From: an uncultured Sphingomonadales bacterium
GTDB lineage: Bacteria > Pseudomonadota > Alphaproteobacteria > Sphingomonadales > Sphingomonadaceae
Assembly: GCA_903839675.1 (NCBI GenBank)
Contig: CAIMDB010000007.1
Location: 1 to 64,000 of the forward strand
Direction: 5' to 3'
DNA length: 64,000 nt
In this document: positions 18,207-25,063 of the stretch, in pieces
Position numbering within the stretch: the stretch's first letter is position 1
Layout of the letters: every line of letters begins with the position of its first letter
The notes under the pieces: model-generated
What the model was told of the DNA's origin: nothing
Database searches by the model: none
Seen by the model: the letters and a program-made list of their open reading frames with translations, nothing else
Program-made: the position numbers and the translations under genes

Positions 18207-18602
18207 ATGACTGAGCAGAAGACCGAAAAAGGACAGCCCGATCTGTCGCGCCGCCGCGCGCTGCAGCTGGGTGCCATTGGCGCTGCGACCGTCGTTTCGA
18301 TCCGTCCCGCACTTGCTCAGACGGCTGGGTCGATCCTCAATTGCGAAATTCCTGTCCCCGGCCCGCAGGGTGCGGGGCAGAGCATCGCGGCGGATGGCCG
18401 CCTTGTGCCCACCGGCACGGCAGGGTCGTACCCGGGTTCTTACCGTCCTTTCAAGGGTGAAGATGTGAAGCGGGCGCTTCGTGGCGGCACGTTGCCGGGC
18501 ACGAGCTATGATCAGTCGCAGGCCTATGTGAAGTATATTCGCCGCCTGCAGCAGGGGCAGAGCGGATTTACCTGCTACGCCTCGCTCCAGATGCCGCGCT
18601 AA
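18207..18602 (+). CDS. Tat-exported small protein of the HPr-rel-A cluster
   Basis: A 131-aa protein with a twin-arginine signal: SRRRALQLG (RR at 15-16), a hydrophobic stretch, and cleavage near RPALA|Q (37). The mature part of about 94 residues has two cysteines (46 and 123) that could pair. It is rich in Gly, Pro, Tyr and Arg (GTAGSYPGSYRPFKGEDVKRALRGG). I recognise no domain. Only 3 nt separate it from the PqqD-like gene, and all four genes 18207-20757 are tightly packed. Its role as substrate of the cluster's modifying enzymes is an inference from position. Confidence 0.8.
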   Translation: MTEQKTEKGQPDLSRRRALQLGAIGAATVVSIRPALAQTAGSILNCEIPVPGPQGAGQSIAADGRLVPTGTAGSYPGSYRPFKGEDVKRALRGGTLPGTSYDQSQAYVKYIRRLQQGQSGFTCYASLQMPR

Positions 18603-18605
18603 GGC

Positions 18606-18872
18606 GTGACGCTGCTTTTCTCGGCCGATCCCGCTGATGGGTTCAAGATTATTCCGCTCGATGGCCTGACGGCGCTCTACCACCGCCGGTCCGGCATGAC
18701 GCATGTTCTGGCGGAACCTGCCCCTGAAATCATCCGCGCCTTGGCCGGACAGCAGCTGGATGTGGCAGGGTTGGCTTCAGCTCTTGGGGTCGATTGTTCC
18801 CCCGACAATGCATCTGCACTTGCGGCACGCCTTGACGAGCTTTGCGAAGCGGGGTTGGTATCGCGCGCATGA
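18606..18872 (+). CDS. PqqD-like protein of the HPr-rel-A system
   Basis: An 88-aa protein starting with GTG. The pattern GLTALYHRRSGMTHVLAEPAPEIIRALAGQQLDVAGLASALG resembles the PqqD winged-helix fold, which serves as a peptide-recognition element for modifying enzymes in ribosomally made peptide pathways. Its TGA overlaps the ATG of the kinase gene (ATGA). The combination with an HprK-related kinase is the arrangement known as the HPr-rel-A system, whose product is not established. Confidence 0.82.
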   Translation: MTLLFSADPADGFKIIPLDGLTALYHRRSGMTHVLAEPAPEIIRALAGQQLDVAGLASALGVDCSPDNASALAARLDELCEAGLVSRA

Positions 18873-19732
18873 TGCGCGCCTTTACGGTTCAGGTTGGCCC
18901 TGTGGGGTTTCGTGTAGGATCTGCCTGGTCCGGGCCGATCCGCGCGCTGGATTGGCTTTACGCCGATTATCCAAAGCCCGCAGACGGCATTCCAGATTTC
19001 ACGGTCCGGCTGGAGCCGGTGAGCGCGCTGCGCCGCTGGGTGCGCCCCTCTGTCGCGATCCGGGGCGATTTTATGCTGCCCGATGCCGTCCCGACGTCGC
19101 TCGCCCACGGACTGCTCGCGGCGGAAATGGCAATGAACCTGCAAGTCGCGATGGGCGAACGCCGCTTTCTGCTGCTCCATGCCTCCAGCGTGGAACGCGA
19201 TGGCAAGGTGCTGCTGATGACGGGCGAGTCAGGCTCCGGCAAATCCACGCTGTCGGCGCTGCTGGGTGAGAAGGGTTGGCGCTTCATGGGCGATGAGTTT
19301 GCCCTGATTGAGCCGGAGACGGGCTTGGCCTTTCCCTTTCCGCGACCTGTCAGCCTGAAGAACGAGGCGGTGGCGGAGATGCTGCGTCATGTGGCAGCGG
19401 AGCGGCTTGGCCCCGAAATGGTCGGCACACCCAAAGGCGATATCCGGCATCTGAAGCCACCCACCGAGGCCATCCGGCGCATGGGGGAGAGCGGGAAACC
19501 GGCCTTGCTGCTGTTCCCGCGCTTCGGCTTGGCGCGTGATGTTCGCCCCGTGCCTCCAAGCGAAGTCTTTGTGCGGCTCACCCAAGCCTCCACCAACTAT
19601 ACGATGCTGGGCGAGCGAGGCTTTGAGGCGCTGACCAATCTTGTGCAGCGCATCCCCGCCTGTGCGATCGATTATCCCGATACAGAAACCGCGCTGGCAC
19701 TGGTCGATGAGCTGTGGGCAGAGCTTACATGA
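18869..19732 (+). CDS. HprK-related kinase A
   Basis: A 287-aa kinase-like protein. The P-loop GESGSGKS (119-126) is preceded by LLHASSVERDGKVLL with His104, and followed by GWRFMGDEFALIEP, the layout of the HprK C-terminal kinase domain. The N-terminal part (FTVQVGPVGFRVGSAWSGPI) is specific to the HprK-related group rather than true HprK, and no HPr or PTS gene is nearby. HprK-like enzymes in lasso-peptide clusters phosphorylate a precursor; here the target could be the Tat protein or an unseen peptide. Start 18869 gives a 4-bp overlap with the PqqD-like gene. Confidence 0.87.
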   Translation: MMRAFTVQVGPVGFRVGSAWSGPIRALDWLYADYPKPADGIPDFTVRLEPVSALRRWVRPSVAIRGDFMLPDAVPTSLAHGLLAAEMAMNLQVAMGERRFLLLHASSVERDGKVLLMTGESGSGKSTLSALLGEKGWRFMGDEFALIEPETGLAFPFPRPVSLKNEAVAEMLRHVAAERLGPEMVGTPKGDIRHLKPPTEAIRRMGESGKPALLLFPRFGLARDVRPVPPSEVFVRLTQASTNYTMLGERGFEALTNLVQRIPACAIDYPDTETALALVDELWAELT

Positions 19733-20757
19733 GGGATGCCCGCATCCTTGCCTGGGTGCTGGCGGACCCGTCCCGCGCGGCGCAGCTGCGCCCCCATCAG
19801 TGGACGGCGATGCTGACCATCGCGCAGGCCGAGCGCCTCTTGGGCACGCTTGCGCATCGCTTGGCGGGGCTCGATGTGCCGGAGACGGCGGCGCGCGTGC
19901 TCGACCGGGCTCGACGTGCAGCGGAAACCGACCGGCGACAGGCGCTTTGGGAGGCGGAGATGGCGCGTCAGGCGCTGGCGCCCCTTGGGCTGCCTGTGCT
20001 CTTGTTGAAGGGCACAGCTTACCTCGCGGCCGGCATGGACGCAGGCCGGGGGCGTCTCGTGGGGGATCTCGATATTCTCGTGCCGCACGATCGCATGGAC
20101 GATGCTGAAGCGGCGCTCCTTGCGGCCGGTTGGGAATGGGTGAAGCAGGACGATTATGACGACGCCTATTACCGCGACCATATGCATGAGCTGCCGCCGC
20201 TGATCCACAAAGCGCGCGACCGGATGATCGACGTGCATCACACGATCCTGCCGCTCACCGCCCGCGCACGACCGGATGCGGCAGCGCTGATCGGCGATGC
20301 GGTTGATCTAGGCAACGGGCTGTCCACGCTCTGCCCGGAAGACATGGTCATCCATGCCGTGCTGCATCTCTTTGCCGATGGGGATTTGTCAGGGGGCTTG
20401 CGCAATCTGTGGGATATTGATCGGATGCTGCGCGAATTTGCCGAAAGCGACGGCTTTTGGGACCGGCTCTTGGCGCGGTCTCGGCATCACAAAGTCACAC
20501 GCTATGTCTCGCGCGCGCTGCGGCTGTCGCATCACATCTTTGAAACGCCGGTGGATCCTTATCTCGCCTGGCAGGGGCGGCGGGGAGATTTGTTCTACAC
20601 AGGGCGGCTATTGGCTCGCAACGGCTGGGGGCAAGACACCGCCAAGCTGCTACGATTCGCCTTTTACCTCCGTTCCCATTGGATCAGGATGCCGCCGCTC
20701 ATGCTCGCCCGCCACTTGTTCACCAAATGGCGCAAGGGGCATCAGCCGATCCGCTGA
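19729..20757 (+). CDS. Nucleotidyltransferase family protein of the HPr-rel-A cluster
   Basis: A 342-aa protein. The segment LPVLLLKGTAYLAAGMDAGRGRLVGDLDILVPHDR contains the GDxD metal-binding motif of the nucleotidyltransferase fold and matches the NTP_transf_5 type found in peptide-modification clusters. A helical C-terminal half follows (CPEDMVIHAVLHLFADGDL, RNLWDIDRML). Start 19729 overlaps the kinase stop by ATGA; an in-frame GTG at 19714 is less likely. It could nucleotidylate a peptide or protein. Its end overlaps the convergent gph gene by 16 bp. Confidence 0.85.
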   Translation: MRDARILAWVLADPSRAAQLRPHQWTAMLTIAQAERLLGTLAHRLAGLDVPETAARVLDRARRAAETDRRQALWEAEMARQALAPLGLPVLLLKGTAYLAAGMDAGRGRLVGDLDILVPHDRMDDAEAALLAAGWEWVKQDDYDDAYYRDHMHELPPLIHKARDRMIDVHHTILPLTARARPDAAALIGDAVDLGNGLSTLCPEDMVIHAVLHLFADGDLSGGLRNLWDIDRMLREFAESDGFWDRLLARSRHHKVTRYVSRALRLSHHIFETPVDPYLAWQGRRGDLFYTGRLLARNGWGQDTAKLLRFAFYLRSHWIRMPPLMLARHLFTKWRKGHQPIR

Positions 20758-23081: not shown

Positions 23082-24329
23082 ATGGCGATTGAAAAGGTGA
23101 GTTTGCACAGCTTGGCTAAGGCGAGCTCGGCCTGGGCCATAGGTCTGAGCTTGGGTTTAAGCCTTGCGGCATGCGGCGGTGGGAGCACGACAGCCGGCCA
23201 GTCAGTGACAAGCGCAACCACGACGACGACACCACCTCCATCGCCTCCCCCTCCTCCGCCGCCGTCTTCCGCTGTCGCCTCGGTGACGACGATCGATGTC
23301 AACGCATTGGCGAATTATGCGGCACCAACCTTACCCGCTTATTATGACGGGTCCGTCCGGGCGCTCGACAGTTTGCCAGCCGGGTCCAGCATAACTGATC
23401 GCGGAGCGACACTTGGCCGGGTACTTTTTTACGATAAGCAGCTGAGTATTAACGGGGCTGTTTCCTGCGCTTCCTGCCACCGCCAAGCATTTGGCTTTGA
23501 TGATGCTGTGCGGTTTAGCACTGGCTTTGCCGGAACGGCTTTTACGACGGCCCACGCCATGCGATTAGGCAACATACGTTATTGGCAGCCCGGCACGATG
23601 TTTTGGGACCGTCGTGCAGCCTCGGTTGAGGCACAGGCGAGCCAGCCGATTATCCACCCCGTTGAAATGGGGTGGGACGCTGAGGCGGGCGGTATCCCCG
23701 CGCTGATCACCCGATTGCAGGGGCTGGCCTATTATCAAGAGCTGTTTACGCTCGTATTTGGCAGTGCGACCGTCACAGAAGCGCGTATCCAGGACGCCTT
23801 GGGGCAGTTTGAACGCAGTATGATTTCCTCATCGAGCCGGTGGGACACAGCCTATGCTCAGGTGTTCAGCGCTACTGGCCCCAATCGTAACCTAAATGTC
23901 ACGCTGCCCGGGTTCACGGCGCAAGAGGATCGGGGTCGACAACTGTTTATGACGGGTCCTGCGGGCGGTGGGGCTGGATGTGCCGCCTGCCATGTGCCGC
24001 CGACCTTTGCCTTGGCGGCGGGTTCGCGGAGCAATGGCCTAGATGCGGGGGAAAGGACGCTGTTTAAATCTCCTTCCCTCAAAAATGTCGGTCTGTCGAA
24101 GGCCTTCATGCATGATGGGCGCTTCTCGACTTTGGCGGACGTGGTGGAACATTATAATAGCGGTGTCCAGGATGGTCCGGCGCTCGACAACCGTGTGCGT
24201 GGGCCGGGTGGCGTGCCTCAGCGATTGGGACTTTCTGTCGCAGATAAGGCGGCTCTTGTTGCGTTCATGCTGACGTTGAATGATGCAACCTTTGTCAGTG
24301 ATCCGCGGTTTTCAAATCCCTTCCGTTAA
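23082..24329 (+). CDS. Di-haem cytochrome c peroxidase-family lipoprotein (CcpA/MauG-like)
   Basis: A 415-aa periplasmic lipoprotein. The signal ends in lipobox SLAAC (Cys31), followed by a Gly/Thr linker and a long proline tract (about residues 49-63). Two haem c sites are visible, CASCH and CAACH, with the di-haem peroxidase features PSLKNVGLSKAFMHDGRFSTLADVVEHY. Such proteins reduce H2O2 or oxidise other substrates using c-type electron donors. It stands between glmU and vapBC and is not needed for amino-sugar synthesis, so it looks inserted. Substrate unknown. Confidence 0.9.
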   Translation: MAIEKVSLHSLAKASSAWAIGLSLGLSLAACGGGSTTAGQSVTSATTTTTPPPSPPPPPPPSSAVASVTTIDVNALANYAAPTLPAYYDGSVRALDSLPAGSSITDRGATLGRVLFYDKQLSINGAVSCASCHRQAFGFDDAVRFSTGFAGTAFTTAHAMRLGNIRYWQPGTMFWDRRAASVEAQASQPIIHPVEMGWDAEAGGIPALITRLQGLAYYQELFTLVFGSATVTEARIQDALGQFERSMISSSSRWDTAYAQVFSATGPNRNLNVTLPGFTAQEDRGRQLFMTGPAGGGAGCAACHVPPTFALAAGSRSNGLDAGERTLFKSPSLKNVGLSKAFMHDGRFSTLADVVEHYNSGVQDGPALDNRVRGPGGVPQRLGLSVADKAALVAFMLTLNDATFVSDPRFSNPFR

Positions 24330-24410: not shown

Positions 24411-24683
24411 ATGGGTAGATTCCTCGTTGATGTCCCTGCCGAAGATGTTCGGAAACTGGATGAGATCGCCAAGCGTGAAGGCAAGTCGCGTGCGGCCGTG
24501 CTGCGCGAGGCTGTGTCCAGCTATTTGGAGACAAGCGGCAAGCAGGGTTTCGAGAAGTATTTCGGCCTTTGGGAGCGGCATGGCTCCACTGTGGACGGCC
24601 TTGAATATGAACGTAATCTTCGAGGGGAATGGCCGGATGTCAGCGATCTGACGCCGCCTAAGAAGAAATCAAAAGCCGCGTGA
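24411..24683 (+). CDS. Ribbon-helix-helix antitoxin (VapB-like)
   Basis: A 90-aa protein. The N-terminal ribbon-helix-helix (GRFLVDVPAEDVRKLDEIAKREGKSRAAVLREAVSSYL, about 2-40) would bind the palindromes just upstream. The C-terminal part (YFGLWERHG...LRGEWPDVS) should wrap the toxin. The stop overlaps the toxin's GTG start by four bases. The pair is a type II toxin-antitoxin module of the VapBC class. Confidence 0.88.
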   Translation: MGRFLVDVPAEDVRKLDEIAKREGKSRAAVLREAVSSYLETSGKQGFEKYFGLWERHGSTVDGLEYERNLRGEWPDVSDLTPPKKKSKAA

Positions 24684-25063
24684 GCGAACGCTTTTTCGAT
24701 ACCAACATCGTCATCGACATGTTGCACAACCGGCCTGCTGCATGGTCCGAAGTGCGCAGTGTGACGCGGGCGTGGATTAGCCGCATGACATGGATCGAAG
24801 TGATGTCCGGCGTCCCCGACGATGCCGCGAAGGAAACTGAGGAGTTCCTTCGGCTGTTTGCCATGTGCGAGATTGACGAGGAAATCGGACGGCGGGCAGC
24901 TGCCATCCGGCATCAGCGCAAATCTTTGAAATCGCCCGATGCGATTATCCTGGCATCGGCCCAGGTGTCGGGTCGCATCTTGGTCACCAGAAATACGAAG
25001 GACTTCCCGGCCGAGATGCCGGGTATCCGCGTGCCTTACAAAGCTCCGAAGGAAACAAAATAA
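24680..25063 (+). CDS. vapC: PIN-domain ribonuclease toxin VapC
   Basis: A 127-aa PIN domain with all four acidic metal ligands: Asp7 (FFDTN), Glu40 (WIEV), Asp87 (SPDAIILA) and Asp108 (TKDF). VapC toxins cut tRNA or rRNA when freed from VapB. Start is GTG 24680, coupled to the antitoxin. Its TAA ends at 25063 and the glmS ATG begins at 25064, with no spacer, so glmS is probably cotranscribed and coupled. Confidence 0.92.
   Translation: MSERFFDTNIVIDMLHNRPAAWSEVRSVTRAWISRMTWIEVMSGVPDDAAKETEEFLRLFAMCEIDEEIGRRAAAIRHQRKSLKSPDAIILASAQVSGRILVTRNTKDFPAEMPGIRVPYKAPKETK

Follow-up and report, generated by a model that had tools for sequence, protein, structure and literature searches.

Gene clusters in which an enzyme resembling HPr kinase (HprK) modifies a ribosomally made precursor are known from several bacteria. 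In the phosphorylated lasso peptides paeninodin, pseudomycoidin and SyanA, an HprK-like kinase acts on the C-terminal Ser of the precursor, and the nucleotidyltransferase PsmN adds a hexose to the Ser phosphate of a lasso peptide, according to a review (PMC9266682). Popov et al. (2026; PMC13381572) describe linear polyphosphorylated peptides (LPPs) of Bacillota, in which the kinase LppK loads a single Ser with several phosphates. That paper also reports that LPP clusters lean to capsular polysaccharide loci in Bacilli, and it calls the role there unknown. A third group, the HPr-rel-A system, is represented by the NCBIfam families TIGR04352 (kinase) and TIGR04353, whose names give no substrate. 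Here we describe a four-gene unit of the HPr-rel-A type found in a window of 64,000 nucleotides, which is the whole stretch of DNA analysed, from contig CAIMDB010000007.1 of an uncultured Sphingomonadales bacterium.

The unit consists of four coupled genes on the + strand (18207–20757). They encode a protein with a twin-arginine translocation (Tat) signal, a PqqD-type recognition element of ribosomally synthesized and post-translationally modified peptides (RiPP recognition element, RRE), as well as an HprK-related kinase A and a nucleotidyltransferase of family PF14907. The Tat gene and the PqqD-like gene are separated by 3 bp, and each of the two following junctions is a 4 bp overlap. The RRE scores 44.6 bits against TIGR04353 (cut-off 35) and the kinase 222.4 bits against TIGR04352 (cut-off 200), and both are thus members of the HPr-rel-A families; the transferase scores 181.2 bits against PF14907 (cut-off 31.2). 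An earlier note, written from the letters of the sequence, had named the same four genes with a Tat protein of 131 amino acids and spacings of 3, −4 and −4 bp, and the coordinates and profile scores bear this out. The P-loop GESGSGKS, the GDLD (GDxD) motif of the transferase and the residues Cys46 and Cys123 also lie where it had put them. Its statement that no cyclase is present holds for the four genes and for the seven flanking genes scanned (13.9–26.9 kb). Its companion statement, that no gene of the phosphotransferase system (PTS) is present, is right for the cluster but not for the genome, where a different contig carries an HPr gene at a distance of ∼7 kb from one for exosortase A.

The reading preferred here, to which we give a chance somewhat above even, is that the unit as a whole yields a single protein that is modified and then exported. 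In this reading, the RRE would hold the newly made Tat precursor and present it to the kinase. The kinase would then add at least one phosphate to a hydroxyl of a C-terminal [ST]-C-x-x-S motif, most likely that of Ser126 in the window protein, and the PF14907 transferase may cap this phosphate with a nucleotide or a sugar. The modified protein would be exported by the Tat system, and Cys46 and Cys123 would form a disulfide outside the cytoplasm. Perhaps the system arose, or was mostly kept, as an accessory of exosortase-type exopolysaccharide clusters, and came to stand apart from them in the window's own family. Phosphorylation and capping are proposed because of the analogy with phosphorylated lasso peptides and LPPs.

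The constancy of the Tat protein beside the kinase was assessed within the order Sphingomonadales. Of 296 genomes from this order, 126 have a TIGR04352 match above the cut-off. A sample of 100 kinase loci (98 above cut-off) was joined with the window to give 101 loci; 27 kinase-positive genomes lie outside the sample. As tBLASTn alone missed many RRE and Tat genes outside the window's family, profiles were used, and the Tat protein was searched for with an iterated profile. It matches 90 of the 101 loci, and the RRE domain starts less than 300 nt from the end of a precursor in 88 of the 90 loci that have both. Two outcomes had been named in the earlier note as speaking against a link, namely absence of the Tat gene from most clusters with the other three genes and its replacement by another short peptide gene. 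Within the order neither was found, and the same Tat family recurs. The 11 loci without a match comprise nine from the genus Sphingopyxis (g6), together with L055 and L035. All nine g6 genomes keep the precursor, either far from the kinase or on another contig. At L055 (genome G172) the precursor lies ∼4 kb upstream of the kinase, outside the stretch first examined; for L035 (genome G053) no precursor was found at the locus or in the genome. Some distant profile matches cover the signal peptide only, yet those proteins also carry the C-terminal motif. Three loci have two precursor copies, as though a single set of enzymes served several substrates: in L104 and L119 both copies precede the RRE gene, and in L036 they flank it.

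A scan for Tat-type open reading frames (twin arginine followed by a hydrophobic stretch) gave a similar picture. It covered the upstream stretch of 137 loci and the downstream stretch of 128, with the opposite strands as controls and four settings. At the loosest setting, 120 of the 137 loci have such a frame ahead of the kinase and on its strand, compared with 17 of 137 on the opposite strand of the same stretch and 13 and 5 of 128 on the two strands downstream. The four settings gave 99, 120, 117 and 119 of 137. A first, strict setting had given 87 of 136 loci and missed visible signal peptides, and it was loosened after that result was seen. The arrangement of Tat frame and kinase exceeds chance.

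Precursor and kinase also occur together at the level of whole genomes. When the 296 genomes were searched with a profile of the mature part only, built on sequences of the window's family, there were 69 matches, all of them in kinase-positive genomes. Within the window's family, 68 genomes have both genes, two have the kinase only (G053 and G287), none has the precursor only and 143 have neither (Fisher's exact test, 5e-54, not corrected for descent). In G287 a divergent precursor adjoins the kinase (L112). Genus g10 has both genes in three genomes and neither in four. The retention of both precursor and kinase after their separation in the nine g6 genomes argues for a shared function. Co-occurrence across Sphingomonadales was a check that the earlier note had proposed, and its guess that the unit modifies its own Tat protein is well supported by this outcome and by the constancy of the Tat family.

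The reverse search started from the precursor in a collection of named genomes, where 364 stretches encode a relative. Among the best 80 of these, RRE, kinase and transferase lie within 2.5 kb downstream of the precursor in 60; the trio is absent from the 6 kb of sequence covered in 18, and two contigs are too short. Fifteen of the 18 stretches lacking the trio are from Sphingopyxis. Of the same 80 loci, 67 have a divergent phoR-like gene next to the precursor and 53 have glmU; in the window, an SDR gene occupies the place of the phoR-like gene. In one stretch (L243:1-6282), reading of the sequence suggests pst-like genes after the phoR-like gene, which itself scores 301.6 bits (cut-off 334.2). 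The DNA ahead of 123 distinct precursor starts was compared with a PhoB-box pattern, and the best match reaches at least 10 of 14 positions in 27 of 123, in slight excess over shuffled sequences (68 of 615). No regulation by the Pho system is claimed, because the mean score is much alike at wrong spacings (8.76 for a gap of 3 and 8.92 for a gap of 5) and at the proper gap of 4 (8.80; shuffled, 8.65).

The precursors are conserved at their two ends. All 91 aligned relatives, which were picked by a profile covering that stretch, carry RRx[LIVMFA]. With the twin arginine and a hydrophobic N-terminus, the family and the window protein have the features of Tat substrates, and export is predicted on these grounds. 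The window protein scores 13.6 against the short Tat model TIGR01409, below the cut-off of 16.7, and its structure prediction has low confidence across the signal peptide. At the other end, [ST]-C-x-x-S is found in 92 of 92 precursors (91 of 91 without the window), with a Gly two residues before it in 85 of 91, and in 6 of 550 other coding-like control frames of the same 100 loci. The count of 91 is partly a matter of selection, as the profile includes the motif; rows matched only at the signal peptide are free of this. In an alignment of 28 rows from the window's family, Ser42, Cys46 and G-F-T-C-x-A-S (residues 120–126) are present without exception. In a 34-row alignment that includes other families, Arg16, Leu19, Gly22, Cys46, Cys123 and Ser126 are invariant, and Ser126 is a residue of the sort (invariant Ser, Thr, Tyr or His) that the earlier note had suggested looking for. 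The C-terminal block is the first candidate for both RRE docking and modification.

The Cys residues probably have a different role. All 91 precursors have a Cys in the N-terminal stretch of the mature part, and the number of Cys residues is even in 88 of 91. Because of this even number, a disulfide formed after export appears more likely for the pair Cys46/Cys123 than a site of modification. The earlier note had singled out this pair when naming the Tat protein as a possible target.

Precursors vary in length from about 110 to 290 amino acids, and their middle is variable, some members being long and rich in Asp, Ser or His. Long middles of this kind in L043, L077, L117, L122 and L123 are suggestive of metal binding. 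The conserved Ser is followed by 3–49 residues and hence is not the last residue, as it would be in a lasso precursor. AlphaFold gives a confident small mature domain from residue ∼60 to ∼128, with ten-residue means of 90 or more over residues 61–130. This domain has no Foldseek match at E 0.001 and no VIA-align match at Z 2, which does not by itself establish a new fold.

The RRE and the two enzymes are conserved as well. All 86 aligned relatives of the RRE match TIGR04353 at E 0.001. The RRE model has a mean pLDDT of 96.8, and its Foldseek ranks 1–4 are complexes of lasso B1 proteins with leaders (probability 1.00, E only 0.006–0.03). The VIA-align list is led by TigE and MibB, whose matched parts we take to be RREs, and TbiB1 (Z 8.8, rmsd 3.2 over 83 residues), and the PqqD structure 5sxy has Z 7.0. 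By its predicted structure, the window PqqD-like protein has the RRE fold of PqqD and lasso B1 proteins. In the kinase, the active-site His, P-loop Lys, Asp and Glu are kept in 140 of 140 sequences. The transferase has a conserved Lys-Gly, DxD and third Asp, and both Asp residues of DxD are present in 130 of 130 rows with a letter there. Sequence searches gave no useful solved relative for kinase or transferase. The window kinase has weak matches to ScmC (28 bits, cut-off 125) and to TIGR00679 (18.7 bits, cut-off 240). A second, weak HprK-like match in the genome, ∼9 kb from the exosortase A gene and less than 2 kb from the HPr gene, is probably an ordinary PTS kinase, and its position a coincidence.

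A wider sample of 398 genomes from the phylum gave 61 with TIGR04352 above the cut-off. Of these, 48 are from other classes, presumably beta- or gammaproteobacteria, and none is from the window's class outside its order. From the 48 genomes, 39 loci were sampled. A Tat-type frame lies directly upstream of the RRE position in 34 of the 39, as judged by the scan and by row-by-row reading, and none was seen there in L176, L178, L179, L188 and L201. The Tat protein carries [ST]-C-W-x-S-[FLI] near its C-terminus in 22 loci. Another 12 of the 39 loci have a Tat protein of a second sort that lacks [ST]CxxS, and for this reason the motif cannot be the sole site of modification. Replacement of the Tat gene, which the earlier note had held to speak against its proposal, is thus seen in other classes, but the replacement is again a Tat protein. 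Five of these 12 proteins (L165, L166, L177, L193 and L195) have in common a C-[ST]-x-S-G stretch that follows the signal peptide, and four of the five have an SPG stretch. A relative of S1C-type serine proteases is found near 8 of the 12 loci without [ST]CxxS. In the full set of 140 loci, profile searches detect an RRE in 128 and a transferase in 132, and the window alone thus gives too constant a picture of the trio. Of the 12 loci without an RRE match, six also have no Tat frame and six have one. In three of the latter (L193, L195 and L199) a small RRE-like frame is visible by eye despite the lack of a profile match.

The genomic setting in other classes and families points to exopolysaccharide clusters of the exosortase (XrtA) type. 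A relative of an XrtA-cluster gene lies within ∼5 kb (tBLASTn, E 1e-25) of 29 of the 39 other-class loci. In 19 it is a stp1/stp2 glycosyltransferase, in three PrsT, in four an amidotransferase only and in three a response regulator without the preceding kinds; the last two kinds could be generic relatives. Three further loci, with only an S1C-type protease relative, are excluded from the 29. L164 and L165 have TIGR03087, TIGR03088, TIGR03108, TIGR02917 and TIGR02915 above their cut-offs. An asparagine-synthase-like gene in L164 was considered as a lasso cyclase and rejected: it is the XrtA amidotransferase TIGR03108 (1017.9 bits, cut-off 816.9) and reaches 239.5 of 525 with the lasso cyclase model. 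Distances to exosortase genes were measured in genomes with a listed exosortase, taking a single one from each. The order's other families, without the window's, contribute 32 kinase–exosortase pairs, of which 23 are on the same contig, all within 14.5 kb, and nine on different contigs.

Several observations weigh against the reading of an exported, modified protein. The window's own family has 0 of 20 same-contig kinase–exosortase pairs within 20 kb, with 33 more pairs on different contigs, and in the source genome exosortase A is on contig C34 and the window on C7. The leader motif of lasso peptides and LPPs, [YW]xxPx[LVIFA], is present in 0 of 91 precursors of the order and is absent from the window protein. 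A motif with an invariant Cys could be conserved for folding alone, the co-occurrence statistic of the window's family ignores shared descent, and 12 other-class Tat proteins lack the motif. In addition, the kinase has neither RRE nor Tat protein beside it in L035, L176, L178, L179, L188 and L201, and because of these six loci it may have other uses. This raises the question of whether the trio modifies another target, such as a small molecule, a polysaccharide precursor or a different protein, with the Tat protein being a co-expressed effector, for example an envelope protein that binds the product. We consider this unlikely, though a serious alternative. It is opposed by the peptide-binding nature of RREs and by the likeness of the RRE model to lasso B1 proteins whose structures include bound leaders. 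It is favoured by the position of the trio, which in families and classes other than the window's lies within or close to polysaccharide loci. The same alternative could account for the g6 genomes, where the precursor is apart from the trio, and for the phoR-like gene that stays by the precursor, but less readily for a Tat protein that accompanies the trio into other classes and whose absences match those of the kinase in the window's family.

A different role for the mark would be that of a quality gate, where a reversible phosphate or nucleotide retains the precursor from the Tat system until it is folded and the exported product is unmarked. The HprK of the PTS is a bifunctional kinase/phosphorylase, Tat exports folded proteins, the mature domain is confidently predicted, and NCBIfam labels the RRE family a peptide chaperone, all of which would suit such a gate. 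We nevertheless hold it to be improbable, as the mature protein carries the conserved motif at its C-terminus, outside the signal peptide, and the lasso and LPP analogues bear the phosphate on the product or an intermediate. About equally doubtful is a proposed protein–polysaccharide link, by which kinase and PF14907 transferase would build a phosphodiester-linked sugar on the C-terminal motif and the Tat-exported protein would be the anchor or primer of an exosortase-type surface polysaccharide. If true, phosphorylated RiPP-like precursors would be a general route to attach or start surface glycans in Gram-positive and Gram-negative bacteria alike. Very improbable, finally, is plain operon conservation, the block of phoR-like gene, Tat gene, trio, gph and glmU being inherited jointly without shared function. 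Possibly unrelated neighbours such as the phoR-like gene and glmU are indeed also kept. But joint absence in 143 of 213 genomes with the precursor alone in none, the retention of both genes after separation, and the occurrence in other classes, amid different neighbours, of a Tat gene ahead of those for RRE and kinase all oppose it, and co-occurrence largely refutes it.

Coordinates of the features of the unit are collected in Table 1.

Table 1. The four genes of the window unit and their sequence features (window positions).
Feature	Position	Strand	Basis
Tat-signal protein, proposed substrate/precursor, 131 aa	18207..18602	+	family in loci of the order; co-occurs with kinase
Predicted twin-arginine signal peptide SRRRALQLGAIGAATVVSIRPALAQ, residues 14–38	18246..18320	+	RRx[LIVMFA]; cleavage point judged by eye
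Cys46, invariant, N-terminal in mature protein	18342..18344	+	alignments; Cys in same stretch in 91/91
C-terminal motif T-C-Y-A-S, residues 122–126, proposed modification site	18570..18584	+	Cys123 and Ser126 invariant
PqqD-type RiPP recognition element (TIGR04353), 88 aa, GTG start	18606..18872	+	profile and predicted fold
HprK-related kinase A (TIGR04352), 287 aa	18869..19732	+	profile; conserved active site
Kinase P-loop GESGSGKS, residues 119–126	19223..19246	+	sequence; alignment
Nucleotidyltransferase PF14907 (NTP_transf_5), 342 aa	19729..20757	+	profile; DxD at 20065–20073

The surroundings of the unit in the window are ordinary. The SDR gene and gph that flank it lie on the opposite strand, and glmU and glmS are farther out; gph scores below the cut-off of its model. 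The closest relative bearing a species name is Chakrabartia godavariana, of the Sphingomonadales. Between 18000 and 20900 two sigma-70-like promoter sites were found, both on the opposite strand, and none on the strand of the unit. Just before glmS (24411–25063), an RHH-like and a PIN-domain-like open reading frame overlap by 4 bp and resemble, by reading, a VapBC-type toxin–antitoxin pair. An MbnH/MauG-like di-heme enzyme is encoded at 23082–24329 (TIGR04039, 172 bits, below the cut-off of 362.85). A role in anti-phage defence was rejected, the lone PADLOC match being the P-loop stretch of JetC (E 0.0036), which is not relevant.

Several known systems are related to the unit in part. The window kinase and RRE are members of the HPr-rel-A families, to which the present analysis adds the Tat precursor family, its motif and the link with exosortases. 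The SynChlorMet cassette (ScmC, ScmD; NCBIfam) is similar in the weak ScmC match of the kinase and in that 2 of 86 RREs match ScmD weakly. It differs in containing radical SAM enzymes, which were not searched for here. The HPr kinase/phosphorylase of the PTS is unlike the window kinase, given the TIGR00679 score far below cut-off and the HPr gene on another contig. In the open-access literature, no paper was found with ‘HPr-rel-A’ or its family accessions, although subscription papers could be missed; nor was any found that joins exosortase with HprK or with PqqD, and the titles found for RiPP with twin-arginine and precursor peptide concern other subjects only. The earlier note knew of no described product, and no named substrate was indeed found; a near analogue, the LPPs, was however published in May 2026 (PMC13381572).

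The phosphorylated lasso peptides share with the unit an HprK-like kinase, a nucleotidyltransferase and an RRE (B1) protein, and according to the review their kinases have His-Lys-Asp-Asp where His-Lys-Asp-Glu is found here (PMC9266682). The four-gene unit differs from them in having no macrolactam cyclase. Its precursor is an exported protein of ∼110–290 amino acids, unlike a peptide of lasso size.

The LPPs are closer. Both systems have a separate RRE, an HprK-like kinase and a nucleotidyltransferase (NTP transferase) for one ribosomal precursor and no cyclase. LPP clusters have 1–3 precursor frames of 35–200 amino acids, and the loci described here have one or, in a few, two. Both lean to polysaccharide loci, the Ser phosphate being shown in LPP and proposed here. 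The LPP clusters encode an SpI-type leader peptidase of their own together with an MsbA-like exporter, whereas here the precursor bears a Tat signal; neither a peptidase nor a transporter of these types is among the four genes or the seven scanned flanking genes (13.9–26.9 kb). LPP precursors have a conserved N-terminal leader with YxxP, while here the Tat signal and the C-terminus are conserved. The main text of the LPP paper has no mention of Tat, Proteobacteria or Pseudomonadota.

The combination of an RRE, an HprK-like kinase and an NTP transferase acting on a ribosomal precursor is thus of an already known kind. What is new, to our reading, is the precursor in Proteobacteria, a disulfide-type protein that leaves by the Tat system and bears a C-terminal [ST]CxxS. 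The HPr-rel-A kinase, for which we found no named substrate, now has a candidate substrate family with a motif, a probable site and an export route. If the proposal is true, RRE-guided phosphorylation is not confined to Bacillota peptides but also acts on folded, disulfide-type proteins that Proteobacteria export. As both kinds tend to lie at polysaccharide loci, a cell-surface role of such phosphopeptides would then be directly testable.

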